Below are positions 3,325 to 26,042 of a stretch of DNA of 27,694 bases, piece by piece. Numbering within the stretch: position 1 is the stretch's first letter; each line of letters begins with the position of its first letter. The notes below the pieces were generated by a model, which saw only the letters and a list, made by a program, of their open reading frames with translations, searched no databases and had not been told where the DNA came from. The position numbers and the translations under genes are program-made. Source of the DNA: a virus. The stretch is taken from the IMG/VR virus record IMGVR_UViG_3300021165_002197, positions 1 through 27,694 of that record; one strand, written 5' to 3'.

Positions 3325-3369
3325 CGTAACTGTATTTATATTTATTTTTTAATTATTCTCTATACCTTT

Positions 3370-4207: not shown

Positions 4208-4386
4208 GACTTAAATTTAATAAATTCTTCTGCCAATACCACATTTCCTTTTTTATGTTTGGGATCATAAGGGCAATTCTTGCACCCATTACCGCAACAT
4301 TGTCCACGTTGAATGTGGAATAAAGCTGTGAATATGACTCTATCTCCATCCAGATAATAATGTATATCTTTTATATAATTTTTGAT
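4204..4386 (-). CDS. DUF5522-like small cysteine protein without a canonical start codon
   Basis: An open frame of 64 codons after an upstream in-frame TAA, ending in a TGA that overlaps the ATG of the 63-residue gene. The translated sequence has HYYLDGDRVIFTALFHIQRG followed by QCCGNGCKNCPYDP, which matches the pattern of DUF5522 proteins (Y-Y-x-D/N-x-x-G, F-T-x-x-F/Y-H-L/I-x-R-G, then CCG/C-x-G-C-R/K-x-C-P-Y) known from Bacteroidota and other bacteria. Function of that family is unknown; the four cysteines suggest metal binding. There is no ATG, GTG or TTG before the conserved part. I place the start at ATC 4386 (60 residues), where IKNYIKD begins, but ATA, ATT or a sequencing error are equally possible. 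The coding nature is convincing, the start is not. Confidence 0.65.
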   Translation of the reverse strand: MKNYIKDIHYYLDGDRVIFTALFHIQRGQCCGNGCKNCPYDPKHKKGNVVLAEEFIKFKS

Positions 4387-4416
4387 GAGTGTGAGTCTTT
4401 ATTTTATTTATATATT

Positions 4417-6270
4417 TTACACTACTTCGCAAGCTCCTGAAGCGCAAGCAACTTGATCCATCAACGCTGTATTATCATCAAATTCAATTACTTTAGCTAA
4501 GTCTATTTCATGAAGATGTTTAACCATTTTCTTAAATGTTTTTTCATCAGTTGTTTGAAATGGTGCTTGAGTATAACTATGTCCATCGTAAGGTAGGACT
4601 GACAGGCCATTATAATATTCTTTATTTTTCCACATCCATTCACCTACTTCTTCCCATTCATTTTCCTTAATAGATATAGTGGCACTAACGTTATTTGTAT
4701 TTTCTCCTTTACGATGACCGGATTTTACCCATTCTATATTGAATTTTTTAACACGCTCTAGTAGATTTAATGCTGTTGTATTGTTTCTTAAAAACGCACC
4801 TTCTGGCGCTTTTTGAGGCACTGATACAATAGATTGAATGCTTGGTTTGAAATAATCATCTTCTAATAATTCAGGATGATGTATTTGTAGATGGGTATAT
4901 AAAGATTCATTTTTTCCTAAACGAATAGTTCTAATATAATATTCATCATGCCAATCATGAATACCACTTGATGTTCCTAATACTAATGAGCTAGTGCCAC
5001 TTGGTTTAATAGTAGTTGTTCTTGCTGCTTTATTTATTCCTATTAATTTAGCAATACGTTCATTTTCTACTTTAACTACTTCAGCTGCTTCTTCTAAACT
5101 ATAATTAATTATTTTACCAGAAGCAATACCTGTCATTCCAACACCTATTAATGCATCTTTTTCAGTTGTTTTACGCCATATATCTCTAAGATAATGGAAA
5201 TTAGTGTATGATGCTTGTAACGTGCCTATAAACGCTCCTACTTTAACTCTTTCATTTAAATCTTCTTGTGATTCAATATTTGAAACGTTTACTTCACATA
5301 AATTACAGAATTGGTAAGGACGTAAAGCAATTTCACAGCACGGATTAGTACCGTAATCTTTATCATTACTGAAGTATATTCCTGGTTCTCCACTGTTTGA
5401 TGCTTCTACTTTTTTCCATAGTTCTAAAAATTCTTTTTTCTTAATCTTATGACGAAGAATCATCGCACTGTTGTTTGCTCTTCCTCTTTGTGGATTTAAT
5501 TCCCACCAACTACCAAATTTACATGTTAGCATTTCTTCATCATTTAAATCAAATAATGCTATTAATGCTGCTCTTCTAATACCTCCACTCAATACTGCAT
5601 CCGCTATGTGACATACAATGTCATGACATTCTAATGATGTTAATTTAGAGCCATTTACTTTACGATCTAATATTTTTTGAATCTGGAATAAGCATTCTTT
5701 TAATGGTTCTGCACCTGGTGCTTTACCTCCTGCTGTTATTAGTCTTGCTCCTTTTGGTCTGATGTCTCTAAAGTCAAATTCTGGTTTTGCTATACCTGTA
5801 AGATATGATTTCATTAACATTCTAATAGCATCAGCCCATCCTTCAATACTATCTCCTATAAGATAACGTCTTGTTTTTAATGGAACTTTTATTTCTGGTA
5901 ATTGATCAACATGATTTGTTTGAACACTATATCCTACTCCTGTTCCACTTAATAATAAAAACATTATTTCAGAAAAACAACGATGATCGTCAATGGGTAG
6001 ATAACAGCAATTATATATTCTTGCATTATTTATTTCAATTGGTTTACCACTAAATTGTAGGGCACGCATTGAAGGTAATATTTTCTTTTCATATACTAAT
6101 TTATAGGCATTTTCAATTTCATCTTTTAATTGAGGAAATTTTTCCTGGTGCATTTGCTTATTTCTTGTTACTAGTTCATTCCATGTTTCTCTTCTATTTA
6201 ATTCTGGGTTGAATTTAGCGTATTTTAGATATACGCTAATGTCTGATAGAATGCTCTGTTCTATGTTCAT
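4417..6270 (-). CDS. nrdJ: Adenosylcobalamin-dependent (class II) ribonucleoside-triphosphate reductase
   Basis: A 617-residue monomeric class II reductase of the Lactobacillus leichmannii RTPR type, making dNTPs from NTPs with a B12-derived radical. Visible: RIYNCCYLP (84-92) with the first active-site cysteine; LLSGTGVGYSVQ (106-117); NPCCEI (309-314), giving the catalytic Asn309, the thiyl Cys311 and Glu313; FCNLC (321-325) with the partner cysteine 11 residues after Cys311, as in RTPR; and a C-terminal C609-x4-C614 pair that would reload the active site. RTPR is 739 residues, so this version is trimmed. It lies 24 bases after thioredoxin, its likely electron donor. Being oxygen-independent, it works in air or anoxia but needs host or imported cobalamin. 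C-terminus intact. Confidence 0.92.
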   Translation of the reverse strand: MNIEQSILSDISVYLKYAKFNPELNRRETWNELVTRNKQMHQEKFPQLKDEIENAYKLVYEKKILPSMRALQFSGKPIEINNARIYNCCYLPIDDHRCFSEIMFLLLSGTGVGYSVQTNHVDQLPEIKVPLKTRRYLIGDSIEGWADAIRMLMKSYLTGIAKPEFDFRDIRPKGARLITAGGKAPGAEPLKECLFQIQKILDRKVNGSKLTSLECHDIVCHIADAVLSGGIRRAALIALFDLNDEEMLTCKFGSWWELNPQRGRANNSAMILRHKIKKKEFLELWKKVEASNSGEPGIYFSNDKDYGTNPCCEIALRPYQFCNLCEVNVSNIESQEDLNERVKVGAFIGTLQASYTNFHYLRDIWRKTTEKDALIGVGMTGIASGKIINYSLEEAAEVVKVENERIAKLIGINKAARTTTIKPSGTSSLVLGTSSGIHDWHDEYYIRTIRLGKNESLYTHLQIHHPELLEDDYFKPSIQSIVSVPQKAPEGAFLRNNTTALNLLERVKKFNIEWVKSGHRKGENTNNVSATISIKENEWEEVGEWMWKNKEYYNGLSVLPYDGHSYTQAPFQTTDEKTFKKMVKHLHEIDLAKVIEFDDNTALMDQVACASGACEVV

Positions 6271-6294
6271 CTTTTTTGTTACTCTTTAAATTGT

Positions 6295-6555
6295 TTATAA
6301 ATGCTTTTTAATAATACCTGCTATAACTGATTTTGGTAATACACCACTGAAACGATAAACGGAAACTCCATTTTTTTCTAAGATAACTGTTGGTACAGAT
6401 GAAACACCATTATGTAATGCTGCTTCTTTATCCATATCTACATCAATTGTTTGAAATTGCACTTCTGTAAGTTCTCTTTGTAATTCTTCAAAGATAGGGG
6501 CGAGCTGCTTGCAAGGTTGACACCAGCTTGCAGTATAACGTTTTACTATTAACAT
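6295..6555 (-). CDS. trxA: Thioredoxin
   Basis: An 86-residue cytoplasmic thioredoxin, shorter than bacterial enzymes (about 105) because the N-terminal strand and helix are missing. The active site is WCQPC (11-15), with Gln in place of the usual Gly, and SVPT carries the cis-proline. The remaining beta strands end in VYRFSGVLPKSVIAGIIKKHL. Gln in the redox loop should shift the potential slightly; this is inference. It lies directly before the class II ribonucleotide reductase, and the pair is very likely a functional unit in which thioredoxin reduces the C-terminal cysteines of the reductase. A late-promoter-like motif lies 21 bases before the start. Confidence 0.93.
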   Translation of the reverse strand: MLIVKRYTASWCQPCKQLAPIFEELQRELTEVQFQTIDVDMDKEAALHNGVSSVPTVILEKNGVSVYRFSGVLPKSVIAGIIKKHL

Positions 6556-6575
6556 AAATTATTAATTTTGTAGTT

Positions 6576-6584
6576 ATAAATATA
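6576..6584 (-). promoter_or_regulatory. TATATTTAT motif before thioredoxin
   Basis: TATATTTAT on the minus strand, 21 bases before the thioredoxin ATG and inside the short gap after the helicase. It is one of seven copies of the same element ahead of genes in this window. No clear -33 box is visible. Confidence 0.35.
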
Positions 6585-6591
6585 GTATATA

Positions 6592-7971
6592 CTACGCTTC
6601 TTCTTCATATTTTAAAAATTTATTTCGAAGAACATACTTATCATCCGCCCCTACATCTGAAAATGAAGTTGTTTTATTATTTTTCGATTTATCTTCGAAA
6701 TTATCACTCATTGGTTGTTCATTTATATTTATATATCCGTTTGCTGTATTGATTTTAGAGCTAAATGTTAACCCATCAGCACCATATCTATTTTTAATGA
6801 AATGCCAATTGCCCGTTCCGTTTACTTTATCTTTTCTTCCACGAGCTAATGATATAATTATATCTCCAATCATAATTTTATCGTAAGATCCAGCAGCATT
6901 TTTAGCTTGTAATATATCTTCATCTGCTCCTGTTCTATTTGCTTGGGATGGGGATACGATGGGAATACCTAGTTCTTTAGCTAATCCTTTAGCATCGGTG
7001 TACACGTCATCAATTTCATCTTTACGTTCTTTTCTACCTTTAGTGCGTAACATATCTAAATAATCAATAATAATTATATCTGGTTTGAATTCGTTTTGAT
7101 GTTCTAGTTGTTGGATATGTGATTCAATTGTATCTAGTGATGCCCGTTTTGGAGCGTATTCTTTAATAATAATTTTACCTTTTACTTTAGCAATTGCTAC
7201 TTCTACTTCAGGGCGATGTTTATCTAATTTATCTACATCTATACCTGAAAATACAGCATCATATCGTTTACCTACATATCCTTCTGATAGTTCTAATGTG
7301 TAATGGATTACATTATATCCTAAGGCAGCAGCATAGGCTCCCATAGCAATTACTCCCCATGATTTACCTCCACCTGGGTTACCGAACAATAATACTAGAT
7401 CACCTTTGCCATAGCCTCCTTGTGTTAAATCGTTAAATGTTTTCCAAGGGAATGGTATAACTTTTCTATCATCATCTCTATATCTTGCTTCTACATCTGA
7501 TTCATATATGTGACCTATATTCTTTTCCTCACCCGCTTTCATAGCGTCGTTAATTAAACCTCTAATCCCATCATAATCGCCTAAGTTGAGTAAATCAACA
7601 GATGTCATAATGGCTTTTTTCATTTGTTGGTTTCGACAGAAGCTACTAAATTCTTCTTCAACCCATTCTAAATCAGCTACATCAGCCATTTTATACGCTT
7701 CACGTAATGCTTCTGTAAGTGAAATTCTTAATACTTCATTGTCGATTTTTTTAATTTCAATCGATAGTGTTTCTATAGTTGGGTATGTGTGGTATTGGTT
7801 GAAATATTTTATAATATATTCAATTATCCATTTTGCTGCTTGATTATCAAAATATTCACTATCAAGCGAATCTGCAAGATTTAATAGGAAATCACGTTGT
7901 GTTAATAAAGCACCTAGTACTTTTGTTTGAAAACTATGTCCATATCTAGCAAGAGAAGAAAGTGTTGTCAT
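6592..7971 (-). CDS. 41: Replicative DNA helicase, DnaB/T4 gp41-like
   Basis: A 459-residue hexameric 5'-3' helicase. The N-terminal helical domain (1-150) is followed by a RecA-like motor domain: FPWKTFNDLTQGGYGKGDLVLLFG leads into the Walker A GNPGGGKSW (197-205), the catalytic Glu region YTLELSEGY (224-232), Walker B DIIIIDYLDML (298-308), and PSQANRTG plus SLARGRKDK for the later motifs with the arginine finger region. It lacks a primase domain, so a separate primase is expected outside the window. It sits between the FEN nuclease and thioredoxin in a replication cluster. The polar tail (SDNFEDKSKNNKTTSFSD) is probably flexible and may contact partners. Confidence 0.92.
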   Translation of the reverse strand: MTTLSSLARYGHSFQTKVLGALLTQRDFLLNLADSLDSEYFDNQAAKWIIEYIIKYFNQYHTYPTIETLSIEIKKIDNEVLRISLTEALREAYKMADVADLEWVEEEFSSFCRNQQMKKAIMTSVDLLNLGDYDGIRGLINDAMKAGEEKNIGHIYESDVEARYRDDDRKVIPFPWKTFNDLTQGGYGKGDLVLLFGNPGGGKSWGVIAMGAYAAALGYNVIHYTLELSEGYVGKRYDAVFSGIDVDKLDKHRPEVEVAIAKVKGKIIIKEYAPKRASLDTIESHIQQLEHQNEFKPDIIIIDYLDMLRTKGRKERKDEIDDVYTDAKGLAKELGIPIVSPSQANRTGADEDILQAKNAAGSYDKIMIGDIIISLARGRKDKVNGTGNWHFIKNRYGADGLTFSSKINTANGYININEQPMSDNFEDKSKNNKTTSFSDVGADDKYVLRNKFLKYEEEA

Positions 7972-7990
7972 ATAACCTATTTTTTTAAAT

Positions 7991-9016
7991 TTACTTACTA
8001 AAATTCAGAGGACCAAATACTTGATTTATCCAATTTGTTGTGTTGGGGATTGATTCACCTAAGTGATCTACAATATACATCTGCATAAACATATGTGTAT
8101 TAAGCGTATAAGGGCTATTAAAACTGCTTTGTATCTGAGATATATTACCATCCGATAAAGGTATACTTTGTAGATTCATTAGCTTACTATTAATTTCTAG
8201 TTGATGTTTACGTTCAATTATTTTACCGTATAGTTCATGTTCACCTACCTTACCAGCACATTTTTCCAATATTTCCTTTAGTGTTGTTGGTTTAGTATCT
8301 GCTAATTCAGGAAACATTTTAATTATTTTTTTAGGGCCTAATCCAATTATACCAGGCAGGTTATCTGATGCGTCTCCCATTAATATTTTGTAGTTAATGA
8401 AATTATAGCTACTAACATTAAATTCATTTAATACGTCTTGTGGTTTGTATATTTTCTTTTTTGTAGGGGAATATACTTTAACTTTATTACTTACTAATTG
8501 AAGAAAATCACCATCAGCAGACATTATATTTACTTCTTTAGTAGCTTCATATTTTTCAAATTTACCTACTAAATAGCCTATAACATCATCTGCTTCAATT
8601 CCATCTATACAAACTATTGATATTGGTAGACATTGAAGATATTGAATTAATCTTGCCATCTGATTATTTATAGACTCTCGTTCTTCTTCTTTATTAGTGA
8701 AGATAGAGTAGTTAGTCATACGATTCTTATTCCGGTTTGCTTTATATTCAGGGTATAGATTCCGTTTACTATTTGATCCACCTACTCCATCAAATACAAT
8801 AATAATCTTAGTTGGTTCTATCATTTTAATAGCATAACCTATTGATTTCAAAAACCCAGTAAGGCCACCTATGTGGTGACCTTCTGGATTGATGTGGTTT
8901 ATCATAGTGAATGCTCTTAGAAAACAGTTTAGGCCATCAATAATCAAAACGGAATCTTGAATTTCGCGTTGAGTATTATTTACACTTGCTAGTAAACTAG
9001 CATATTTGTTCTTCAT
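7991..9016 (-). CDS. rnh: 5'-3' exonuclease / RNase H of the FEN family (T4 Rnh-like)
   Basis: A 341-residue flap nuclease that removes RNA primers from Okazaki fragments. The metal-binding acidic residues are all in place: D27 (VLIIDGLN), D76 (IIVFDG), the D138-x2-E141-x-DD143-144 cluster (DGIEADDVIGY), D168 and D170 (SADGD), D215 and D218 (GDASDN), followed by the helix-hairpin-helix LPGIIGLGPKKI. Length is close to T4 Rnh (305) with a somewhat longer C-terminus. Its ATG overlaps the stop of uvsX (TAATG), so the two are translationally coupled, and the helicase begins 19 bases downstream. The N-terminal 20 residues before the first strand are extra and polar. Confidence 0.92.
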   Translation of the reverse strand: MKNKYASLLASVNNTQREIQDSVLIIDGLNCFLRAFTMINHINPEGHHIGGLTGFLKSIGYAIKMIEPTKIIIVFDGVGGSNSKRNLYPEYKANRNKNRMTNYSIFTNKEEERESINNQMARLIQYLQCLPISIVCIDGIEADDVIGYLVGKFEKYEATKEVNIMSADGDFLQLVSNKVKVYSPTKKKIYKPQDVLNEFNVSSYNFINYKILMGDASDNLPGIIGLGPKKIIKMFPELADTKPTTLKEILEKCAGKVGEHELYGKIIERKHQLEINSKLMNLQSIPLSDGNISQIQSSFNSPYTLNTHMFMQMYIVDHLGESIPNTTNWINQVFGPLNFSK

Positions 9017-10110
9017 TATTCTTCTTCTTTTTCAATTATATCCACTACCATTGATTTATCTTCTTCCCATTCTGAATTATCTTCAACAACATCAAACTTA
9101 CCTTCTCCTAATATTGGTATCCATTCTGATGAGTGTTCTTTCTTGTATTTATCTATGAATTTTTTATCATCAGTTATGAAACCATGAGATGTCATTACTA
9201 CTGTTGCTTTAGTAGTAACATTGTTGATATGGTTTTTGTCGCAGGATATTTTTGTTTTCTTTGCGAATTCAACCTCTTTACCATTTTTAGTTGCTTTTAT
9301 CTTACTAACACCACTATTTGATATATTACCAAACGTCAGTATTAGAGTAGAATCGTAAAACATAGTATCGCCCCCTTTATTCTTCATTTTTGGCTGAGCG
9401 AATTTATTCTCAGCTGGAGCAACCCATATTTTATTAATAGCAACCATTGTATTGGTGTATGGTTGATTTTCTTTACGTGATAGTGTAATCTTCTGATTGA
9501 TGAAGTTTCCAAATTGTTGAGACATAGCACCAGCATTCCATTGTGGATTATTGTTATTAGCTTCTACACTCATTCTACAAGGAATAGAACCAATTGAATC
9601 CCATAAGAATAATAAATCATAAGGCAATTTACCTAATGCTTGTTCATTTAATAAATCAGCCATAAATGCAGCTACATCTTCAATTGTGTTTAGTGAACCT
9701 CTATCTACATATAGGAAGAATCCTTTATAATCTATTATTTCACCTGTTGTTTCATCTACTACCGGATCCATTTCAAAACCCATCATTTGAGCGTGTTCCC
9801 AGTTCCATTTCATCTCTGTGATAATGAATACAGGTAATATTCCCATTTTTTGGGCGTTGATTGCTACCTCTAGTAAAGCTGTTGTTTTACCGGTATCGGA
9901 ATGGCCTCTCAATAAATTGATATGACCCATTCCAACCCCAGGTATAGATAAAGCATCTTGAAGAGCAGAGGAAAATGGAATCCATTTTTGTTCTTTAAAT
10001 TTAACCGTTTGGTCTAGAAATTTACTCTTTTTAAATGAAGATAAATCAAATGTTTTACTGTTAAGTGAATTACTTATCACCTCACTAAGTGAGGATTTTG
10101 TCTTAGTCAT
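9016..10110 (-). CDS. uvsX: UvsX-like RecA-family recombinase
   Basis: A 364-residue strand-exchange ATPase. Walker A is GHSDTGKT (69-76), preceded by GVGMGHINLLRG. The FIITEMKWNWEHA region carries the catalytic Glu, and Walker B is DLLFLWDSIGS (165-175). A loop with QWNAGAMSQQFGNFINQ forms the L1 area, followed by MKNKGGDTMFYDSTLILTFG around L2. The tail is very acidic (VVEDNSEWEEDKS to EKEEE), as in T4 UvsX (391 residues). UvsX loads on gp32-coated ssDNA, and the gp32-like gene lies 14 bases upstream; the FEN gene overlaps downstream. This is the order expected of a T4-type recombination-dependent replication module. Confidence 0.92.
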   Translation of the reverse strand: MTKTKSSLSEVISNSLNSKTFDLSSFKKSKFLDQTVKFKEQKWIPFSSALQDALSIPGVGMGHINLLRGHSDTGKTTALLEVAINAQKMGILPVFIITEMKWNWEHAQMMGFEMDPVVDETTGEIIDYKGFFLYVDRGSLNTIEDVAAFMADLLNEQALGKLPYDLLFLWDSIGSIPCRMSVEANNNNPQWNAGAMSQQFGNFINQKITLSRKENQPYTNTMVAINKIWVAPAENKFAQPKMKNKGGDTMFYDSTLILTFGNISNSGVSKIKATKNGKEVEFAKKTKISCDKNHINNVTTKATVVMTSHGFITDDKKFIDKYKKEHSSEWIPILGEGKFDVVEDNSEWEEDKSMVVDIIEKEEE

Positions 10111-10124
10111 AAGATATTTTTATT

Positions 10125-10949
10125 TTATGAAAATAAATCATCAAACTTATCAGAAGCACTAGTTTTAGCTGCTTTAGTATCAAGTTTGTATGTTTGTTCA
10201 ACTGGTTTTTGCATTTCAGCTAGGAAATCATCTTCTTCATCTTCTGTTTTAGATGCTATTGGTGTTTCAGTATCTTCTTCGCTATCTGGGTTTAGCCATT
10301 TGTCTAATAACTCTTTCAATTCATCGAATGAATAGTGTTTATTAATTGAGAAAATATCTGGCTGATCGTTTAATGCTTTTTCTACTATAGTAGCATCTTC
10401 AGAAATAGCTGATGTTTTAGGCTTAACACGAATATTACATTTGATACCTTTTCTACCAGCAACCATATCTTCAGTAGCTTCAATAGTAAAGTCACGACCA
10501 TCAGTAATATCTGTAAAGTCACCATAATCTTCGTCTGATGCTATTCCTAGTAATTGTTCATAGACTAATTTACCAAATTCCCATAGGCGAGCACCTTGTG
10601 CTTCTTCACCACGTACCAATACTGGAACGAAGTAACGTAATTTTGGTTCAATTTTCTTTGCTAATTGCCAATCTTCTTTGTCAGATGATTTGCGGAGATT
10701 TTTTGCAAAGTCTGCAATAGGATCTTTTTCATTCCAATTAGTCAATGCTAAGATTGGTCCTTTTGAAAAGCCATAGTGAAAGTAAATTTCGCGGAATGGA
10801 TTTGATTTGTCGAATTTGCTGGGGAGGATTCTAATCTGGTATTTACCAGGTTTAGGTTTGAAAAAAATAAGGCTGTAGTCTATTTTTTCACGCTTAACAT
10901 TTTTAGACTGGGAAGCGGCCAGTTTGTTTTTGATGAGACTTAAGTCCAT
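10125..10949 (-). CDS. 32: gp32-like single-stranded DNA-binding protein
   Basis: A 274-residue ssDNA-binding protein similar in plan to T4 gp32 (301). The N-terminal basic segment (LIKNKLAASQSKNVKREK) would mediate cooperativity. The OB core starts at IDYSLIFFKPKPGKYQIRILPS and includes ARLWEFGKLVYEQLLG, matching the gp32 FGKKIWDK region. The C-terminal tail is acidic and Ser-rich, ending KFDDLFS, for partner recruitment. The gp32 zinc ligands (one His and three Cys) are not present: the protein has a single Cys, in IKCNIRVKPK. The leader carries two dyads around a TATAAT box, suggesting tight control, as is known for T4 gene 32. It is first in the gp32-uvsX-rnh run. Confidence 0.9.
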   Translation of the reverse strand: MDLSLIKNKLAASQSKNVKREKIDYSLIFFKPKPGKYQIRILPSKFDKSNPFREIYFHYGFSKGPILALTNWNEKDPIADFAKNLRKSSDKEDWQLAKKIEPKLRYFVPVLVRGEEAQGARLWEFGKLVYEQLLGIASDEDYGDFTDITDGRDFTIEATEDMVAGRKGIKCNIRVKPKTSAISEDATIVEKALNDQPDIFSINKHYSFDELKELLDKWLNPDSEEDTETPIASKTEDEEDDFLAEMQKPVEQTYKLDTKAAKTSASDKFDDLFS

Positions 10950-13555: not shown

Positions 13556-14068
13556 TTAGCCTATCAAGAAAGTAGTTATACCAGGCATTTGTTTTTCTGC
13601 TTGATCTAAATTTTGAGGAATCCCGTTTGCATAACTAGGAGATGATACAAATTGAATAGATACTGTTTGATATATAGGGTTGGTTTGAAGAGATTTAAAA
13701 TCATCTTCATTAATCTTTTTTATAAGATTAGGTTCATTTATTTTTTTGCAATAAAATCTAATTTCATTGTCTCCTCTAGCAAACCCATCAGGAAGACTAG
13801 TGATTTTTGGTGTTGAGAGAGTTTTGGATGATATTCCTGACACTAATGAAAATATAGCTGTTGATAAGCCTCTATTTAATAATGTGTTTCTATCTTTTAT
13901 TTTTATTAATTTAGGAGATTTAATATCAAATGTTTTACCAGCATATAAATTATTATTTAATTCATAATAATATCCTTGATATACAGCATTTGTTAATTCT
14001 ACTATAAATTCTCCTCCAGAAGTATATTTACTTGTTACTATTTGATTTGATGGTATTCTTATAGCCAT
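13556..14068 (-). CDS. Small baseplate/tail-associated protein (170 aa), unknown
   Basis: A 170-residue protein whose ATG overlaps the stop of the hub-lysozyme gene (TAATG), so it is translated together with it. It begins MAIRIPSNQIVTSKYTSGGEFIV and has a beta-rich first half with GYYYELNNNLYAGKTFD, a Ser/Ile-rich hydrophobic middle (TAIFSLVSGISSKTL), and a strand-rich end QTVSIQFVSSP. No enzyme motif, signal peptide or clear family is visible. It may be a small wedge or spike component or a chaperone for the hub protein. It is the last gene of the tail block before the polymerase. Confidence 0.7.
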   Translation of the reverse strand: MAIRIPSNQIVTSKYTSGGEFIVELTNAVYQGYYYELNNNLYAGKTFDIKSPKLIKIKDRNTLLNRGLSTAIFSLVSGISSKTLSTPKITSLPDGFARGDNEIRFYCKKINEPNLIKKINEDDFKSLQTNPIYQTVSIQFVSSPSYANGIPQNLDQAEKQMPGITTFLIG

Positions 14069-17000
14069 TATTTATATTTTTCTACTGCTTTTAAATAAAT
14101 ATTATATACATCTTGAGTTGTAAATCCAGCATTTTGACCCGGATATTGATATATACCTGATCTATCTGGTATAGAAGCCCATTCTCCTGCTAATTTACTT
14201 TGTCCATTTCCTAATATCTGAAGGAAAGGATCATTTTTAGTAACATCTATTATTCCACTTTCGGCAAGGCTGAATGCTGATTCTAATTGGGTGTCTGGTA
14301 TGTTTCTTTTAACTGTTAATAATTTATATCCTGTCTTATCTTGATTAGCTTTGTTTATAGGTTCATTTTTGTTTTTATTATATTCTACCCAAGTGGTATA
14401 TAAAAATTGATATCTTCCTGTTGCGTCGCTAGTTAATGTTCCTGAACTAAAAGAAATGTTAGGGTGTCCTCCTGTGTAATATTCGCTCCAACCAGGTACT
14501 AATGCATAGGTAAAGCTTACATCATATCCATTATTACTACCTTGCCCAGATGTTCCCTCGGTATATGCACACATATCTAAAATAGCAGCTGCCCCTTTTG
14601 GTACTGATAGATCTATTTTTCCAAAGCCTGCAATTCTTGCTGCATCGGTTGCTTTTGAGGTACTACGGATAGTTGGGATGATTGCATTTGCTATAGCCTT
14701 TGCAAATAAAGTACCTAAAGTCAATGAACTGAATAATGATGTTTTTAAAGGATCATCTAGTACTATATTTAGTGTATCTATCTTAGTTACCCAATCTCCA
14801 TTAGATATAGTATGTCCTATACTTGTAATAGTATTACCTAATTTAGATCCAATACCATTAATTCCTCTATATCCACTAGGCATTATTTCATCTGGTAATT
14901 TAAACATATGTCCTATTACTAAACCTCCTATACCATCCATTTCACATGAAAATTTAGTTGGTATTAGATTTCGGTTACTACCTGGTGATTTTACGATTGT
15001 TTGAAAATATGCTATTAAATCATGTAAAGAGGTTTTAGCTTCTTGTTCAAAGTGTACTGCTGATCCGGACGTTAGTGAACTAAATTCCTTTACTATTGTA
15101 GATAAACCATTAGTAATTGTTGGGATACCATTATTGATACTAGGTGTTGGAGAATTTATACCATCTTTCTTTTCAGGAATAATTCTATCTGTTATTTTTC
15201 TATTAAAATCAATCATGGTATTGTTTTGCATACCTAATTGACCTCCTTGTGCTTGAGAACCAATAGCTATCAAAGCGGATTGATTTGGAAATATTTGAGA
15301 TTGTAATGAATAGGATCTTACAACTGATGATAGATTATGTACTTGTAAAGGAAATAAATTATTATACGTATTAGTATTATTATCTTTTTCTGTATAATTT
15401 ACATCAATTATTCTTGCTACATTATTATCTACAGGATCTACATGAATTTCAAAACTACTAACATTACCTATAGAAGCTTGAATATCTGATATTACTTTTT
15501 TTAGGTAATTATATAAATTAATTTCATTTTTATTACTAGGGTCACTAGATTGAAGATTAGTATCTAATGCCTTTAGATATAGATAATTAACATTTACAAA
15601 AATGTTTTTTATAATTCCTATTTCTGTATAGGGGTCATCTTTTAAAAAATACGGTTTAACAAAGAAAGTTATAAATTCTAAGTTAGTAATTGCTTGTTGT
15701 CCTTGCGATGCTATTGTTGCTGTTGCTGCTGCTGTTGATGCTTGTGAAGGAGGGACTGTTATTTTTATATCTGAAACATCTCTATTAAGTAATAAAGATG
15801 AAATAAATGGTATTTTAGTTCCTGCAGGTGGTGCTGGTGGTGGTTGAAAGGTACTAATAGTACCATTAGTAATAATATCATCAATGTCTCTTACACTCAA
15901 ACCCGTGCCCGTGGGTAATTCCACCTTAAAATTAACTTTAAAACCACTAATACTTTCTAAATGTATTTTAATCTCGTACATATATTGAGCGTCATTATCA
16001 CCAAATTCCTTATTAAGTAATTCTTCTATAGTGTCATAAGTATTATTGTTTTTTCTTTCTTTCAATAATCTTTCAACTTGTTCATAAATAGCAAAATCTG
16101 TAATAAGTTTTATTCCATTTACAATATCTATTTCAATGGTGTTCATAAAAGGCCCGGTGGTTCCTGTTGCACCTTGTATTAATAAATCATAAGCGGCTTT
16201 TGCAGTAGTTACTGTAGGACTATTAGCAGATGCTGTTATAGCAGGGGTAAGAATGGATTTTCCATTATTATACCATACCGTATTTGGTATTACGCATATA
16301 CTAGGGTCTACGGATACTTGTAAGGGATGGGCAGTGCATAATAATTCTGACCCTATAGATGGTGTGCCATCATATGTATTTGAATAAACATCTAATTTTA
16401 CTAGTGGTTGACCATCTGATCCTTTTGCTATAATATATTTATTAAGAATATTAAACATTACTTCTAACGTAATATATACTTGATCCCCATTTACACTTAA
16501 AGATCCTTCAGGTAGGTTTAACCAAAGATTCTCTAAGGGCACTCGCACACTAGAATCTATATCTACATTGGCAGATTTAGAAGAAAATTTAATAGAATTT
16601 GTATCATCTATATAATTATAATAGAATTCCGCCCATATTCCAGCTAATATATTTTTTTCATAAGATATAATCCACTCATTCCTATTTCCTGGGGTAAATT
16701 CATCCTTTAATAGTCCAGTTGATACAGTAATCTCTTGTGGAAGGGAATAATTTATTTTTAATGATTCAATTATTTCACCTGTAGTAATGATTGTTGTTTG
16801 GCAATCATAACCACCATCCATTCTAGCTGACCATTGGTAATTTTTTACATATCCAAACATAGCATCATAATTACCACCATATTCTATTGATTTATCATAT
16901 AACTCTTTAAATAATTCAGTTCTATTAGTTGATGTTCTATTTATTATATCATAATAATCAGTAAAAGTTGGTTTATATTCACCTTTATTATTTAAATAAG

Positions 17001-17478
17001 GTGCCCATCCCCACTCTAATAATACGGTATATCCAGGGCGCATATATAATAGTTCTAAATCTTCTAGTTGTTTAATGTCCCAACATTGAAAATTTACAAC
17101 TGCTTCTCGTAATGAACCATATGCTGTTTTGGATTTAATATCTACTGATGTAATTCCGGGCATTGGACGAATACCTAAGCGATATGGAGTTCCTTGATAA
17201 CTTTTATTGCTATAAGCGTTATTAAATTCTCCTACACCAGATTTTGGTGTTCCTATTATTGACTTATTTGTTATATCATTTAAAGTACCACCTTGCAAAA
17301 CGTAATTTTTTGCTAAGTCATTTTTTCCATCTACATTAACGCTAGATGATAATCTTATCCACGCATTGCGTGAATTAAAGTATGATAAATTTTGAGGAAT
17401 ACGATTATTTATAGCGTCTTGGCGAGCTTTTAGTTGCTTTTGTACAGTAGGAGAAAATGAACTTTTAAATATTGACAT
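14068..17478 (-). CDS. Baseplate hub protein with C-terminal GH104-type lytic transglycosylase domain
   Basis: An 1136-residue virion protein. The N-terminal part (about 100-260) has hub-like features, including MPGITSVDIKSKTAYGSLREA and MRPGYTVLLEWGWAPYL. A central beta-rich region with Ser/Thr linkers follows. The last 186 residues resemble phage lambda endolysin R (GH104): ILDMCAYTEGTSG with the presumed catalytic Glu974, GYDV, a GGHPN segment, DATGRYQFLYTTW, and AGEWASIPDRSGIYQYPGQ, matching R's WASLPGAGYGQ. It would cut peptidoglycan as the tail tip enters the periplasm, as T4 gp5 does with an unrelated lysozyme. It lies 4 bases after the gp53-like gene. The enzyme domain is clear; the hub assignment rests on motifs and position. 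Confidence 0.82.
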   Translation of the reverse strand: MSIFKSSFSPTVQKQLKARQDAINNRIPQNLSYFNSRNAWIRLSSSVNVDGKNDLAKNYVLQGGTLNDITNKSIIGTPKSGVGEFNNAYSNKSYQGTPYRLGIRPMPGITSVDIKSKTAYGSLREAVVNFQCWDIKQLEDLELLYMRPGYTVLLEWGWAPYLNNKGEYKPTFTDYYDIINRTSTNRTELFKELYDKSIEYGGNYDAMFGYVKNYQWSARMDGGYDCQTTIITTGEIIESLKINYSLPQEITVSTGLLKDEFTPGNRNEWIISYEKNILAGIWAEFYYNYIDDTNSIKFSSKSANVDIDSSVRVPLENLWLNLPEGSLSVNGDQVYITLEVMFNILNKYIIAKGSDGQPLVKLDVYSNTYDGTPSIGSELLCTAHPLQVSVDPSICVIPNTVWYNNGKSILTPAITASANSPTVTTAKAAYDLLIQGATGTTGPFMNTIEIDIVNGIKLITDFAIYEQVERLLKERKNNNTYDTIEELLNKEFGDNDAQYMYEIKIHLESISGFKVNFKVELPTGTGLSVRDIDDIITNGTISTFQPPPAPPAGTKIPFISSLLLNRDVSDIKITVPPSQASTAAATATIASQGQQAITNLEFITFFVKPYFLKDDPYTEIGIIKNIFVNVNYLYLKALDTNLQSSDPSNKNEINLYNYLKKVISDIQASIGNVSSFEIHVDPVDNNVARIIDVNYTEKDNNTNTYNNLFPLQVHNLSSVVRSYSLQSQIFPNQSALIAIGSQAQGGQLGMQNNTMIDFNRKITDRIIPEKKDGINSPTPSINNGIPTITNGLSTIVKEFSSLTSGSAVHFEQEAKTSLHDLIAYFQTIVKSPGSNRNLIPTKFSCEMDGIGGLVIGHMFKLPDEIMPSGYRGINGIGSKLGNTITSIGHTISNGDWVTKIDTLNIVLDDPLKTSLFSSLTLGTLFAKAIANAIIPTIRSTSKATDAARIAGFGKIDLSVPKGAAAILDMCAYTEGTSGQGSNNGYDVSFTYALVPGWSEYYTGGHPNISFSSGTLTSDATGRYQFLYTTWVEYNKNKNEPINKANQDKTGYKLLTVKRNIPDTQLESAFSLAESGIIDVTKNDPFLQILGNGQSKLAGEWASIPDRSGIYQYPGQNAGFTTQDVYNIYLKAVEKYK

Positions 17479-20116: not shown

Positions 20117-22192
20117 TTATGCTAGTTTATATGTATTTTTTGATTGTTGTGTGCCGGTTTCTTGTTGTCTTCCAACAACATTACCTAACTGTTCACCAGC
20201 TACATTAAGAGAGAATTGTGGTGTTGGTGTTGGTTTTGACATGGATGTTGCTAGATTATTAATAGCTGCTACCATTGGTGTTAAATCGGATCCTCCACCT
20301 CTATTAATATTAGGTGAAACTGCTAATCCATCACCTTCTGCAGTTATTGCTGTTGCTCCATAATCATCAGTAATAGTAAATGGACCTCTACTTGAAAATG
20401 CTGTACCATCTTTAACTTGTTGAGGCTTTTGAGACATTTCTTCTTTCGATTTATTCATAGAAGATGATATAGCTGCTATACTTCCTAAAATAGCTATAGC
20501 ACCAATACCAAGAGTTAAAGCACTCATCATAGTAACAGAAGCAGCAGCACCCGTTATTAATGGAATCACCATTGCTGCTAGACCAGTTACTAATCTAGTT
20601 ATAGACATCCCCACTAAAGCTCCCATTACTATTTTAATAAGAGTTGCATTACCTGCTATGCTTGCAAATCCATCTATTAATTGTCCAAAAGGACCTGCTA
20701 CTAAATTACCAATTAAATCTTGTAATTTTTCAATAGCATTATTAAATTTTTCTTGTGATGATTGTTGTTGTAATGATTGGTATAAGGAGTCTTCAACAGA
20801 TATGCCTTTTTCTTTAGCTAATGCTAATTGCTCTTGAGCTGTCATTGAAGAAACATCACCTAAGCGGTTAAATTTCTCTTGGTCCATTAACATTTTACTC
20901 ATTTCATCCCTATTCATTCCGAAAGCTTCAGCTAAGGATTGTTGAGCAATAACATTCATTTTACTAAAGTCATTTAAGTTACCTACTTGAGAGGCTACTT
21001 CTGCAGCTAATGCTGCTTGATCTCCTGTTAATGCAGCAGCTCTAGCTTTTTCTAGATTAATTTGCTTACCAGTTATTAATTCTGCTTTTAATTCATTTTC
21101 AATTGATGATTCAAAGTTTAATAAAGAATCACCAATTTTATCTACTTGTTCTAAATTAAGACCTAATGCTTTAGCTTGAACTACTGCTGCTCCTAATGCT
21201 TCAGGATTACCCTGAAATTTAACTAAAATACCTTCACTTAAATTAGCAACTTCTTTTAGTATTGTTCTTTGATCTACTGAAAGTTTATTTGTTCGTCCAG
21301 CAGCAAATGAACCTTTAATAATAGATTTAGTTGTATCTTCTATTGAGGTACCATTAATAACAGATAAACGAGCTAATTTTCCTGCTTCACCAACGGATAA
21401 ACCCAATAATTTAGTTAAGCGAGAAAAATCTTCTGTTTGTTTGCCTGTATAGGTTCCTGCAACCCCTAGCTCTTGTGTAAGATCACCTTGAGCTTCCATT
21501 AATTTTTTAGTAGTAACAAATGCATCTCCTGTTGATTTGGCATATGAGGCAAAATTATCTCTTATTCCTCTTGCTTGATCTTTAGAAAGTCCTAATGATT
21601 TTGCTAATTCTGTAACCTGAGTGTCTGCTGCTAATACAAAATCTAATAATTGTTTAAATATAGCAGCTAATGTAAAAGATTTAGCTATCTCTTTAATTTT
21701 ATTTTTAGCTAGATCAACTAAACTATTTTGTTTTTTCTTTTCTGCTGTTATTTTAGCTTCTTCTTCTGCTATTTTTAACAATGTCCTTAATTCATCCTCA
21801 GTAGATTGATGTAGTTGTAAAGCTAATGAATTTTTAACAAGATCATTTTTTAATTTTCTAATAGCACTGTCATAAGATTTTTTATCTAAGGTGGACCCTT
21901 TTGTTAAAAGATCATTCAATTTTTGTTGAGCAATATTTTTTTCTATACTAAGCTGAGTGTTTTTTATATTAGACTTAGTTAATTCACTTGAAATTTTACT
22001 AATATCTTTAGAAAGATCTTTAGACTTTAATAATTGTTCTGCAAATTGCCTTGTTTTTTCTGTAGTATCTATTAATTGCTTTCGCATACCCATTCCTATA
22101 CTACTTCCAATATCTTGTACTTGTTGAAGAGTTTTATTCAGTTCTTCATTTAAATCGTCTATCTGTTTTTTTAATGCTATTGGATCTGCCAT
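20117..22192 (-). CDS. Tail tape measure protein
   Basis: A 691-residue protein. Residues 1-170 are strongly helical and charged with coiled-coil spacing (MADPIALKKQIDDLNEELNK). The middle resembles tape measure repeats (ADTQVTELAKSLGLSKDQARGI). A hydrophobic stretch of about 64 residues (516-579) could insert in the host inner membrane during ejection. The tail ends in a Gly/Pro/Gln-rich segment. At roughly 0.15 nm per residue, it predicts a tail near 100 nm, about that of T4. It follows the gp26-type gene and its frameshift extension, the classic place for a tape measure gene. A terminator and then a late-promoter-like motif lie immediately upstream. Confidence 0.88.
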   Translation of the reverse strand: MADPIALKKQIDDLNEELNKTLQQVQDIGSSIGMGMRKQLIDTTEKTRQFAEQLLKSKDLSKDISKISSELTKSNIKNTQLSIEKNIAQQKLNDLLTKGSTLDKKSYDSAIRKLKNDLVKNSLALQLHQSTEDELRTLLKIAEEEAKITAEKKKQNSLVDLAKNKIKEIAKSFTLAAIFKQLLDFVLAADTQVTELAKSLGLSKDQARGIRDNFASYAKSTGDAFVTTKKLMEAQGDLTQELGVAGTYTGKQTEDFSRLTKLLGLSVGEAGKLARLSVINGTSIEDTTKSIIKGSFAAGRTNKLSVDQRTILKEVANLSEGILVKFQGNPEALGAAVVQAKALGLNLEQVDKIGDSLLNFESSIENELKAELITGKQINLEKARAAALTGDQAALAAEVASQVGNLNDFSKMNVIAQQSLAEAFGMNRDEMSKMLMDQEKFNRLGDVSSMTAQEQLALAKEKGISVEDSLYQSLQQQSSQEKFNNAIEKLQDLIGNLVAGPFGQLIDGFASIAGNATLIKIVMGALVGMSITRLVTGLAAMVIPLITGAAASVTMMSALTLGIGAIAILGSIAAISSSMNKSKEEMSQKPQQVKDGTAFSSRGPFTITDDYGATAITAEGDGLAVSPNINRGGGSDLTPMVAAINNLATSMSKPTPTPQFSLNVAGEQLGNVVGRQQETGTQQSKNTYKLA

Positions 22193-22220: not shown

Positions 22221-22246
22221 AAAGCGCCTATTTCTTAGGCGCCTTT
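22221..22246 (-). terminator. Hairpin terminator at the end of the frameshift extension
   Basis: Minus-strand AAAGGCGCCTA pairs with TAGGCGCTTT around a 5-base loop (10 bp with one bulged base), followed by a U-rich run. The stop codon of the frameshift extension (22228-22230) lies inside the stem. Confidence 0.7.
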
Positions 22247-22497
22247 GTAGTATAGGTTGGTGATGGTGTTATGTTCGGTCGTGCTATTTCTTTACTTTTA
22301 CCGTTATTCTTCATCATATTTGATTGCTTTTCGTTTGCTTCATTTTCTTTATCAAAGTGTTCTTTTAATAAATTAAATGTAGTTCGACGTAACCATATAG
22401 GCATGTGATAAACTGTTTCCCAATCATAACCACCACCATGAAATACAATTTCGTGTATTTGCTTGAATAGATGTGGTCTATATTCCGGCGTCAGGCC
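22228..22497 (-). CDS. Frameshift-expressed extension of the tail assembly protein (no start codon)
   Basis: An open frame of 89 codons from GGC, in the +1 frame relative to the gp26-type gene, ending in TAG within the terminator stem. It encodes GLTPEYRPHLFKQIHEIVFH, GGGYDWETVYHMPIWLRR and a polar tail ending TKAPKK, and looks clearly like protein: this segment is familiar from small genes next to gp26-type genes in marine T4-like phages. In frame upstream, there is a TAG and then no ATG, GTG or TTG before the conserved part, so it cannot start normally. The 7-T run at 22498-22504 would let tRNA-Phe slip +1 and join it to residues 1-246 of the upstream gene (335 residues in all). A homopolymer indel is the alternative. 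Confidence 0.7.
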   Translation of the reverse strand, partial: GLTPEYRPHLFKQIHEIVFHGGGYDWETVYHMPIWLRRTTFNLLKEHFDKENEANEKQSNMMKNNGKSKEIARPNITPSPTYTTKAPKK

Positions 22498-23236
22498 AAA
22501 AAAAGTTAAGCGAAATTGGAATCGCTATACCCTCCCCTGTATAATTTTCATCCTCAGGTATAAATTTAAGATCAATATCTGGCTGTACTTTACCATAATA
22601 TTCACGTAATGATCTAGCATCGGGTGCTAATAAGTAGTTATCTACAAAATCGCGTACTGCTTTTGCTTCTCTATCACCATTTATTGATGTAATGATATAC
22701 TTCATACGAGTTGTTATATCGGATGAACTGTTTGGGTTTATTTTTTGTAATCCTTTAATTTCAGCTTCGATTTTCTTTTCATCGCCGTGTGTTAATAATT
22801 TGAATGTAATAACATTAGCTGATTTAGGTAGATTAAAGGTAAATTCATTTATACCAGCTTTGTATAATGATTCATCTATTTCTTTTTCCTTTAATTCAGA
22901 TAAATTTACAGTAGTATTAATTTCGTTTCCGCGTTCATCGGTATATTTAAACGAATAATCAGCACCATATCCAAGTATGCGAGCTGCAATGAGTATCGCG
23001 TTTTTATCGCCTACTAATAATTCATCGTAGTCGATTTTTGTAATGATTAGCGCTTGTAATAATTTATCTATTACTGTACCATTTTTAATGAAGTTGCTAT
23101 TGGTAAGAATGTCTTCTTCACGTGCAGTCATGTACTTCATTTCAATTTCGCCTTTGAAAAGTGGGTTTTCTTTAGAATACAATAAACCTTTTGATGGTAA
23201 TGTAACTATTTCTGTTGGTAACTTTAATTCTGCCAT
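22478..23236 (-). CDS. 26: T4 gp26-type baseplate/tail assembly protein
   Basis: A 252-residue protein matching the T4 baseplate hub assembly family: LPSKGLLYSKENPLFKGEIEM (12-32), then KYMTAREEDILTN and IDKLLQALIITKIDYDELLVGD, and AARILGYGADYSFKY. It ends SLNFFWPDAGI. Positionally it lies between tail tube and tape measure, the slot of tail assembly chaperones that in many phages are made in two forms by a programmed frameshift. Here a run of seven T at codons 245-247 precedes a +1 frame ORF without its own start. A late-promoter-like motif lies 27 bases upstream, after the tube terminator. Family call firm; chaperone function is inference. Confidence 0.88.
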   Translation of the reverse strand: MAELKLPTEIVTLPSKGLLYSKENPLFKGEIEMKYMTAREEDILTNSNFIKNGTVIDKLLQALIITKIDYDELLVGDKNAILIAARILGYGADYSFKYTDERGNEINTTVNLSELKEKEIDESLYKAGINEFTFNLPKSANVITFKLLTHGDEKKIEAEIKGLQKINPNSSSDITTRMKYIITSINGDREAKAVRDFVDNYLLAPDARSLREYYGKVQPDIDLKFIPEDENYTGEGIAIPISLNFFWPDAGI

Positions 23237-23331: not shown

Positions 23332-23820
23332 TCAGAAATTGAGGACGCAATAATCCATAGCAATTGTTATAGATATACTAATTGCTGTATCGCCTGATGA
23401 CCAATCATAATCTCCAAAAGTTGCTGATTTACAATAAGCACCTTTAATAATCCACTCACTTACTACATCACCAACTGGTCCTAAAATATTTAATGTAAGA
23501 TCTTTTTTATAAAAATCAGAATAACCATCACGGCCTGTTACTGATTCATGTGCCAAACGAGCCCATTCCATTACAGATTGTGCACCACTTGGAGTGATTG
23601 GGTCATATAATTCTAAAGTCATGTCATTCCACTTTACTTTACCTTTTACTTTACGGTAAACATTAATGTGGTCTAATATGATTTCACTAGCATCAAATCC
23701 AGGAGCAGCGGCTTTCTTAATTAGGTAAGCTGGGATACCATCTATATACATGATAAAGCGATTTGATACTTTAGGTTCAAAAGCAGTAAACATGATTTCA
23801 TTTGGGGATAATACAGGCAT
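23332..23820 (-). CDS. 19: Tail tube protein (T4 gp19-like)
   Basis: A 162-residue protein of the contractile-tail tube family. Typical parts: SNRFIMYIDGIPAYLIKKAAAP, a FDASEIILDHINVYRKVKGKVKW beta stretch, MTLELYDPITPSGAQSVMEWAR, GRDGYSDFYKKDLTLNILGPVGDVVSEWIIKGAY and SWSS-like SSGDTAISISITIAMDYC at the end. It is nearly the length of T4 gp19 (163). Hexameric rings of it form the inner tube through which DNA and the tape measure pass. It follows the sheath gene, as usual, and is followed by a strong terminator. Confidence 0.92.
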   Translation of the reverse strand: MPVLSPNEIMFTAFEPKVSNRFIMYIDGIPAYLIKKAAAPGFDASEIILDHINVYRKVKGKVKWNDMTLELYDPITPSGAQSVMEWARLAHESVTGRDGYSDFYKKDLTLNILGPVGDVVSEWIIKGAYCKSATFGDYDWSSGDTAISISITIAMDYCVLNF

Positions 23821-23867: not shown

Positions 23868-26042
23868 TTATGCAGGAAATTCAGCGCCAGTTGGTGTTAA
23901 GTTAAAGTTTAATATAATAAATTCAGCAGTCTTAGTTGGTTGGATATAAATCTGACCTACTAATTGGTTTCTATCTATTACATCAGGTGTGTTATTAGAA
24001 TCATCCATTACTACCTTATAAGCATATAATCCTTGACGTTGTGTTACTGATTCAAGATATGGATTAACTTGGCTTAAGAATCTATTACGAGTTACAGTTG
24101 TGTTTTGTTCGAATACTAAATTACGAGCAATACCTCCAATAAAATCTTTTAATGCAATCAATAAACGACGAACGTTTACGCGATCTAAAGATGTTGGTTT
24201 GCGTTGTAGTGTTTTCTGACCCCATACACATACTCCAGTTCCTGGGAATGTGGCTAATGGGTTAACATTACCTGTATATAAATTATCTCTATCTGTTTGT
24301 GATAAACGACGTTCTGCCATTAATACTGAAGGAATACCACCACGATTTAGACCTGCTGGAGCGAACCATTCAGCACCTACTTGATCGTTAAATGCTAATA
24401 CACCACCTATTACAGTTGATGGAGGGCACCATACTGGTCTGCCTGTATTGTTACTAAATAATTTAATCCATGGGAAATAAGTAGCACCATAATTACTTGA
24501 TTGGCCAGCTGCGTTTGTAGTTGCAGCTGTTATTGAAGTTCCATATATTCCGGCATCTAAAATTGCAATTGCATCACCACGATTTTCACAAACAGCAATC
24601 ATATCATCTGCTGCTGTTGTATCTAAACCAAGACCTGGTGCTAATAATACATTATAGCGATATTCATCTTTATTTGTTAGTAACGTGAAAGCATTAATAT
24701 AATCGGCTACTCCAAATCCTTGAATGTTACCTGTAGGGCCAGTTGAATAATTAGCACCTGTACCAATATTTTCATTCATTTGTTTAGTAGCTGTTGTATC
24801 TGCTACACCACCATCAAATGAACCACCATATGAACCACTACCTATTTGAGGTAATGTAGTAGCATAAGAGCCAGTTTTAAAATTACCATTATTATCTATT
24901 GAATCTACGTTTGGTGTAGTAACTGAAGCAACACGTACATATTGTGATGCGTTTGCAAATTCACCTGTAAAATTTACATAGCCATTAGTTAAATCAGCTA
25001 CTGGTTTTACATCACCAATGATGCGAGAAATATAGTTAGGTAATTGTGGGTCTAAACTTACGTTTGCCCATGTTTCTAAAATATTCTTTTGAGATTGAGT
25101 ATCATCACCACGACGAACTACAATTGTAAATGTACCACCGTTGCTACCTGTATTTACGTTAGTTACTTCCCAACGTACATTGTATTGAGAGCCACTAGCT
25201 AAAGCACCAGCATTCATACTTGATGTATTATTCATTTGATTACCCCAAGCTAATGTTTCGAGTGTAAATGATGAATTTACAGTACCATTAGAGCCATTTG
25301 CAAATAATTGTACTGTACCTCCTGGGTCAGTTACATAATCTAAAGATCTACTAACAAACCAATTAGCGTTAGGAGATTCATTTAAATTAGAAGGTACAAG
25401 AGCCTTAATGGTTAAAATATCACTAGTGGTATTATAAGAAGATGTAAAGTAATTATTAAATAAACTACCACTATTATTAATAGCTCCTGTAATAGAGTTA
25501 CCAAAAGTATCTATTGATGGACTTGCACCAACTCCAATATAGATATAATCATTCCATGCATAATAATTACCAGGAGCTAACCAATCAGCTATTTGTAAGT
25601 AATAATTATTTACTCCTGGAATGCCTAATTGCATTACTTTATTTATAGTACTACCTGTATCACTTCCTACTAATTGAAAAGAAGCAGAAGATAAATTTCC
25701 AGAGGTACTACTAACAGAACTATTTACACTAGCTGAAGCATAAGTACTAATATTTGTACTACCACTAATAATTCTTGTTACTAATAATGATTGACCACCA
25801 TTATTAAAATATTCACGAGCTGCTTGTGAAGTAAAATATTCATAGTAGTAGTTACCACTTTTAAATACATCACCAAAAAGCGACAAATATTGTGAATATG
25901 TATTTACATACGTTGGTACAAAGGGACGACCACCTACTGTAGGACCTACAATAGCGGCGCCTAGAGCTGCTGGAGCTGTGGTATATATACTTTGATCTGA
26001 TTCGATCTGAAATACGCCGGGACTTAAAATTACTTCTGCCAT
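23868..26042 (-). CDS. 18: Contractile tail sheath protein (T4 gp18-like)
   Basis: A 724-residue sheath protein. The N-terminus (MAEVILSPGVFQIESDQS) and the GAAIVGPTVGGRPFVPTYVNT segment, with YFNNGGQSLLVTRI, are standard for sheath subunits. The conserved C-terminal domain includes YFPWIKLFSNNTGRPVWCPP, VIGGVLAFNDQVGAEWFAPAG, NLVFEQNTTVTRNRFLSQVNPYL and IYIQPTKTAEFIILNFNL, which forms the interlocking arms. The middle (about 90-440) is a Ser/Thr/Asn-rich insertion, likely the exposed variable domain. Size is near T4 gp18 (659). A TATCTTTG box, an AATATTTAT motif and a 13-base dyad lie in the 93-base leader, in keeping with strong late expression. Confidence 0.95.
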   Translation of the reverse strand: MAEVILSPGVFQIESDQSIYTTAPAALGAAIVGPTVGGRPFVPTYVNTYSQYLSLFGDVFKSGNYYYEYFTSQAAREYFNNGGQSLLVTRIISGSTNISTYASASVNSSVSSTSGNLSSASFQLVGSDTGSTINKVMQLGIPGVNNYYLQIADWLAPGNYYAWNDYIYIGVGASPSIDTFGNSITGAINNSGSLFNNYFTSSYNTTSDILTIKALVPSNLNESPNANWFVSRSLDYVTDPGGTVQLFANGSNGTVNSSFTLETLAWGNQMNNTSSMNAGALASGSQYNVRWEVTNVNTGSNGGTFTIVVRRGDDTQSQKNILETWANVSLDPQLPNYISRIIGDVKPVADLTNGYVNFTGEFANASQYVRVASVTTPNVDSIDNNGNFKTGSYATTLPQIGSGSYGGSFDGGVADTTATKQMNENIGTGANYSTGPTGNIQGFGVADYINAFTLLTNKDEYRYNVLLAPGLGLDTTAADDMIAVCENRGDAIAILDAGIYGTSITAATTNAAGQSSNYGATYFPWIKLFSNNTGRPVWCPPSTVIGGVLAFNDQVGAEWFAPAGLNRGGIPSVLMAERRLSQTDRDNLYTGNVNPLATFPGTGVCVWGQKTLQRKPTSLDRVNVRRLLIALKDFIGGIARNLVFEQNTTVTRNRFLSQVNPYLESVTQRQGLYAYKVVMDDSNNTPDVIDRNQLVGQIYIQPTKTAEFIILNFNLTPTGAEFPA

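Follow-up and report, generated by a model that had tools for sequence, protein, structure and literature searches.

The tail assembly chaperone (TAC) gene of the T4-like phage described here very probably contains a programmed +1 ribosomal frameshift, by which a short and a long protein would be made from one locus, in the manner of the lambda pair. The window, by which we mean the whole stretch of DNA analysed, is the IMG/VR viral contig IMGVR_UViG_3300021165_002197 (27,694 bases; AT-rich, with 31.5% GC). The arrangement of the frames, its conservation, the direction of the shift and the homology of both domains are supported by the comparison of related sequences set out below.

Two overlapping frames and their neighbours

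On the minus strand, a 252-codon open reading frame ends CTT AAC TTT TTT TGG CCT GAC GCC GGA ATA TAG, and is overlapped by a +1 frame that has no ATG, GTG or TTG ahead of its conserved part and is open back to a TAG at 22527-22525. When one T is skipped the two frames are joined into exactly 335 residues; the coding strand of the window contains a single copy of the sequence TTTTTTTGG. A preliminary description of this DNA had given the coordinates and lengths of these features (252 residues, 89 codons, a fusion of 335 and seven T), all of which were right on re-reading, and the upstream in-frame TAG and start-less 89-codon frame that it described are seen in the sequence. The features are as follows.

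22478..23236, minus strand: gp26-type gene in the zero frame (TAC-N, the short form of 252 residues; PF12322, phrog_150 and an AlphaFold2 model)
22478-22480, minus strand: TAG, stop codon of the gp26-type gene
22498..22504, minus strand: slip site, seven T in AAC TTT TTT TGG, with the last TTT plus T as minimal core
22231..22497, minus strand: second open reading frame, +1 frame, without start codon (TAC-C, gp51 C-terminal type), 89 codons
22228-22230, minus strand: TAG, stop codon of the second open reading frame
22525..22527, minus strand: in-frame TAG that bounds the +1 frame on its upstream side
22530..22537, minus strand: GGGGAGGG element, fixed throughout the close clade and located 25 nt ahead of the seven T
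20117..22192, minus strand: tape measure gene, directly downstream of the gp26/second-frame locus (alignment to the immuto tape measure protein)
23332..23820, minus strand: tail tube gene (gp19-type), directly upstream of the gp26-type gene (phrog_4542, E 2e-22)
23868..26042, minus strand: tail sheath gene (phrog_23, E 1.5e-69; PF04984/PF17482)

The genes follow in the order sheath, tube, gp26, gp51 domain and tape measure. The position before a tape measure gene, as originally proposed, is borne out by alignment of the 20117-22192 product, which matched no family, to the annotated tape measure protein of the Flavobacterium phage immuto (29% identity over 563 columns, E 7e-49), which occupies the corresponding place in its own genome. 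Elsewhere on the minus strand, 14068-17478 encodes a 1136-residue protein that adjoins the tail hub genes and has an endolysin-like domain near its C-terminus (residues 958-1131), and 4417-10949 is a T4-like replication block with a DnaB-type helicase, a 5'-3' exonuclease, RecA-like and gp32-like proteins and a partial match to B12-dependent ribonucleotide reductase.

The gp26-type identity first suggested for the 252-residue protein agrees with its matches to PF12322 (E 2e-7, above the cutoff) and to phrog_150, 'baseplate hub' (E 3e-12), and by these sequence matches the short form belongs to the gp26 family. A profile of the second domain aligned with the gp51 domains of KVP40, cyanophages, T4 and jumbo phages (hhalign probability 97.1, E 6.8e-11), and the second frame is therefore read as a gp51-type domain. 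Weak matches linked 5 of 29 second-domain members to phrog_634 and 6 of 29 to eCIS DUF6760 pairs (best E 3e-5); seven very distant fusions, once aligned, diverged too far to serve for scanning. The short form and the second domain were folded separately, as plain translations. The AlphaFold2 model of the short form (pLDDT 90) resembles, to a modest degree, the only solved structures reaching at least Z 4 in a second-look alignment: YqbN (Z 6.0), which we take to be a TAC-type protein, the HK97 structure 2ob9 (Z 4.9), a tail assembly chaperone by its title, and ORF19 of a PICI-like element (Z 4.0). The second domain is modelled as three helices, and neither sequence nor Foldseek searches found a solved relative for it; Foldseek alone gave nothing significant, and the sequence search of solved structures no match, for the short form either. 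Gene order and domain homology make a TAC with short and long forms the best reading of the locus.

Conservation of the slip site and of the second domain

A search of IMG/VR recovered a close set of 80 relatives (74-86% identity), 79 of which have the second part on the contig. The +1 offset, the overlap and the seven T recur in all 79, as do the motif A(A/G)C-TTTTTTT-GGCCTGA and the upstream stop in the +1 frame, so the proposal of a +1 slip at the T run stands up to comparison, with the site and both frames conserved when aligned. The phages with seven T provide no example of a six-T run within a single continuous gene, which the preliminary description had named as a contrary outcome, or of the other it had named, a separate ATG-started second gene in place of a conserved run; two loci that do have such a gene, L180 and L183, have also lost the run. 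A distant set of 100 further loci, extending to approximately 40% identity, came from searches seeded with Mel-JY01 and a huge-phage homologue, and nearly all of these share the +1 arrangement, mostly as TTT TTT TGG CCT. It was also found in six contigs within bacterial or archaeal metagenome-assembled genomes, three of them labelled Winogradskyella or Flavobacteriales. Once duplicates are removed, 146 genes remain, of which 144 have the frameshift arrangement, and the signal is kept in hundreds of related phages.

In a joint codon alignment (146 distinct sequences), 144 genes encode the second Phe, and without exception they use TTT for it. Of 26 conserved two-fold columns, no other is free of synonymous change; at other conserved Phe columns upstream, TTC accounts for 15-23%. 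The slip site is conserved at the synonymous level. The seven T are retained even where the A site encodes Tyr or Phe in place of Trp (TAC or TTC for TGG). The second frame is open for at least 65 codons in all 138 distinct genes in which it is complete, and its median dN/dS of 0.17, against 0.16 for the gp26 frame, indicates that it is under purifying selection. Conservation of the fused protein runs across the joint, the residues F-G-L directly after the slip being invariant in 63 sequences. In a small number of relatives the +1 frame does contain an ATG, which lies either ahead of the slip or some 12 codons inside the second frame.

Further upstream, the GGG and GAG codons of GGGGAGGG, followed by GGY, are fixed in 67 of 67 close relatives, wobble positions included, in an AT-rich genome. 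This element was considered as a stimulator of Shine-Dalgarno type and rejected, since it lies 25 nt upstream, off the known spacings, and is not found as such in other groups. No element at a classical stimulator spacing is common to all the groups compared, and no conserved downstream stem or pseudoknot was found: single sequences folded against dinucleotide-shuffled controls yielded weak mean z values of -0.4 to -0.9.

In GenBank, the second domain of four phages is filed as a separate hypothetical gene, mostly truncated and with an implausible start.

immuto (L082), 4339-4449: annotated second-domain gene
Mel-JY01 (L083), 4237-4473: annotated second-domain gene
SP-15 (L085), 4309-4428: annotated second-domain gene
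BRock (L189), 3276-3458: annotated second-domain gene

It is absent from the annotation of LIS04 (L188) and SagM-GXN1 (L086). The present reading would correct these records, in which the domain is misfiled as a separate gene (immuto, SP-15, Mel-JY01) or missing.

Variant sites, mechanism and alternatives

Outside the seven-T phages the site varies. Ten distinct genes have TTC TTT TGG and three have CTT TTT TGG, and further forms come from the phages immuto (TTT CTT TGG), SP-15 of Bacillus (TTT TTT CAC), SagM-GXN1 of Streptococcus (TTC TTT CGT C), LIS04 of Listeria (TTT TTT AGT, with the slip on the first TTT) and BRock, pSt2308 and LuckySocke of Streptomyces (CTG TTT CGC or CTG TTT CAG). Common to all is one P-site codon, YTT, followed by T or C, such that the +1 overlap is TTT or TTC, both Phe. 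The seven-T run from which the site was first recognised is present and conserved, but the core that is needed amounts to four bases, YTT plus T or C.

We propose that most ribosomes would read AAC TTT TTT TGG in frame and stop seven codons past the last TTT, producing the 252-residue form. In a fraction, the peptidyl-tRNA-Phe on the second TTT would release and re-pair one base forward, on T5-7; reading would then go on through GGC CTG ACG and add the 89-residue, helical gp51-type domain, producing the 335-residue form, for which the predicted window-type junction peptide spanning the slip is ...SLNFFGLTPEYR. Both the slip of tRNA-Phe and the product ratio implied here are what we infer for this locus. 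By analogy with lambda gpG and gpGT, the two forms may act as chaperones, the gp26 part as a coat on the tape measure protein and the long form, which would be rare, in the recruitment of tail tube subunits. The CTT T variant of immuto counts against the scheme, in that a tRNA-Leu would have to form an imperfect new pairing with TTT there, as happens in prfB.

Because YTT plus T or C is all that the variants share, they fit a single peptidyl-tRNA slipping +1, and disfavour both a -2 slip and transcriptional slippage. A -2 slip, with the tRNA re-pairing on T2-4 and one extra Phe incorporated, leads to the identical frame, and the window's own seven T would permit the move; at TTC TTT TGG, TTT CTT TGG and CTG TTT CGC, however, it places the tRNA on TCT, TTC and TGT, where proper pairing fails, and we give it a slender chance. 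We put slippage of RNA polymerase on the T run, with the fusion read from mRNAs of altered U number, at a similarly slender chance: a seven-base homopolymer in an AT-rich genome would suit it, but the arrangement is shared by relatives whose T runs are just three or four bases long, and while six T would suffice for a genomic fusion, an in-frame fusion of that kind occurs in no relative.

It is improbable that the second frame is instead started separately, whether by re-initiation at a non-ATG codon (e.g., the CTG beside the slip) or at a downstream ATG. The joint in the window does read GGC CTG, and the versions in cyanophages, KVP40, L180 and L183 have an ATG near the stop. Against this, the Leu codon at the joint varies (CTG, CTA, CTT, CTC), a usual start codon is lacking in most relatives, and no change is seen in the residues that immediately follow the slip; invariant residues encoded with a variable Leu codon speak for continuous translation rather than re-initiation. 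Finally, homopolymers are prone to sequencing and assembly error, and a true run of six T would make one continuous gene, but seven T or equivalent non-homopolymer sites are found in more than 150 assemblies and in isolated phages, and an explanation by error is refuted by the relatives, leaving it a negligible probability. A programmed +1 frameshift is the reading we retain.

Changes of decoding and known systems

The exceptions to the +1 arrangement are L180 (a contig of 188 kb) and L183, in which the second domain is a separate ATG gene shortly after the gp26 stop and the T run has given way to TTC TTG TAT and TTC CTT TGG. On a tree of 57 gp26 proteins, calculated with the slip region excluded and with long, in part uncertain, deep branches, these two share a single branch nested in the +1 clade; its sister is immuto, where the run is already interrupted. 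A -1 site near the end of gp26 reads T TTT TTC in KVP40, cyanophage Bellamy, Vibrio phage 2.275.O, Atu_ph07 and Munch, and T TTT TTT A in RAS14 and XacN1, and in all seven the second domain continues in the -1 frame. When the labels +1, -1 and separate are placed on the same tree, three changes are required, against a mean of 13.9 when shuffled. T TTT TTC is present in 79 of 79 distinct cyanophage-type contigs, and in nearly all of them a start codon, ATG or in rare cases GTG or TTG, follows closely on the stop. Combining a perfect -1 heptamer with, in most cases, an ATG that lies at the gp26 stop or closely behind it, these contigs and KVP40 could make both a fusion and a free gp51. The 595 kb uncultured phage LR756511.1 (L087) has a -1-type heptamer, GGT TTT TTC, in the end of its gp26-type gene, and lies on a long branch near +1 Thornevirus-like sequences.

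We think it likely that, within one homologous family of chaperone genes, frameshifting has changed direction between -1 and +1 while staying in every case at a single Phe position close to the gp26 terminus, and that the family contains a very large, widespread clade using +1 slippage of a single tRNA. The hosts of the +1 lineages include Flavobacterium, Microcystis, Bacillus, Listeria, Streptococcus and Streptomyces. The tRNA would start on UUU, or in rare cases on CUU, and slip to UUU or UUC; the A site would hold a sense codon, and no stimulator is evident. If true, this would be a class of bacterial +1 recoding site not described so far. So large a +1 clade makes testable the rule that it is the two chaperone forms that matter, not how they are made, and its natural series of sites, TTT T, CTT T and TTT C, lends itself to the study of forward slippage in bacteria when no stop codon occupies the A site.

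Frameshifting in TAC genes is already known, including at -1 poly-T sites in T4-like phages, and since these sites and the gp26/gp51 TACs themselves are published, the novelty lies in the +1 direction and its breadth; the conservation of +1 across a large clade and the change of direction within one family, as the alignments indicate them, are new. Of the preliminary view that a +1 event would be unusual in a T4-like phage, the direction survives as new, to which its breadth is added here, but poly-T sites in such phages were known. Similarly, the G/GT-like pair that it proposed holds comparatively, but had already been named in the literature as the gp26/gp51 TACs of T4-like phages. In the literature that we searched, no +1 site is reported for this family, Vladimirov 2022 being covered through its title and citing statements.

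Vladimirov, Gautam and Davidson (2022, Virology 566:9) reportedly identified the chaperones of T4-like phages, under a title that points to a mechanism other than frameshifting. Statements citing that work describe, in some T4-like phages, a short gene together with a longer fusion gene (PRFect, PMC10885494) and, in TAC-N genes of T4-like phages, -1 poly-T signals (PMC12846349). The window is like the T4-like gp26/gp51 TACs, so far as these partial accounts describe them, in its homologous domains, its place before tape measure or hub genes and its short and long forms. It is unlike the -1 poly-T or separate-gene versions in that the window and its clade use +1 with a start-less second frame, so that decoding differs while homology stays; compared with the short and fusion gene pairs, as cited, no second gene copy is seen here. 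T4 itself, listed as an exception to the conserved frameshift (PMC5009743), encodes gp26 and gp51 in separate, oppositely oriented genes, the first of which ends without a slip site. In the KVP40 record the short gene is described as resembling the last 40 residues of T4 gp51, and the same is described for cyanophages (PMC3037559).

More widely, TAC frameshifting is classical in dsDNA phages and mostly -1, and in lambda gpG coats the tape measure protein while gpGT recruits the tube (PMC5009743). The present locus is like lambda in encoding a short chaperone and a frameshifted long form just before the tape measure gene, but unlike lambda and most others in that one tRNA would shift +1. The TAC shift of the archaeal virus HSTV-2 is described as very likely +1 (PMC5009743). 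SPP1 was considered as a +1 TAC precedent and ruled out, since its gp17.5* site, UUUUUUC, is -1 and its +1 shift is in the tail tube gene (PMC6316719). GTTTTT sites in the TAC genes of Vandenendeviridae and Andersonviridae are also -1 (PMC12846349). These -1 sites, of SPP1 and of the two families, are T-rich and at the same locus, but opposite in direction to the window's +1.

The closest parallels to the slip itself are in unrelated genes. The +1 site of prfB is CUU_U, and the CTT T of immuto is the same sequence in a different gene and host, without homology. In influenza PA-X, UCC_UUU_CGU is an experimentally proven +1 core (PMC3498833). The SagM-GXN1 site coincides with it in the UUU_CGU part; again, genes and hosts are different and not homologous. 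As in PA-X and prfB, a single peptidyl-tRNA on UUU (or CUU) would move +1 onto UUC or UUU, but the A-site codon of the clade, unlike the CGU of PA-X or the stop codons of other sites, is usually UGG, a sense codon.
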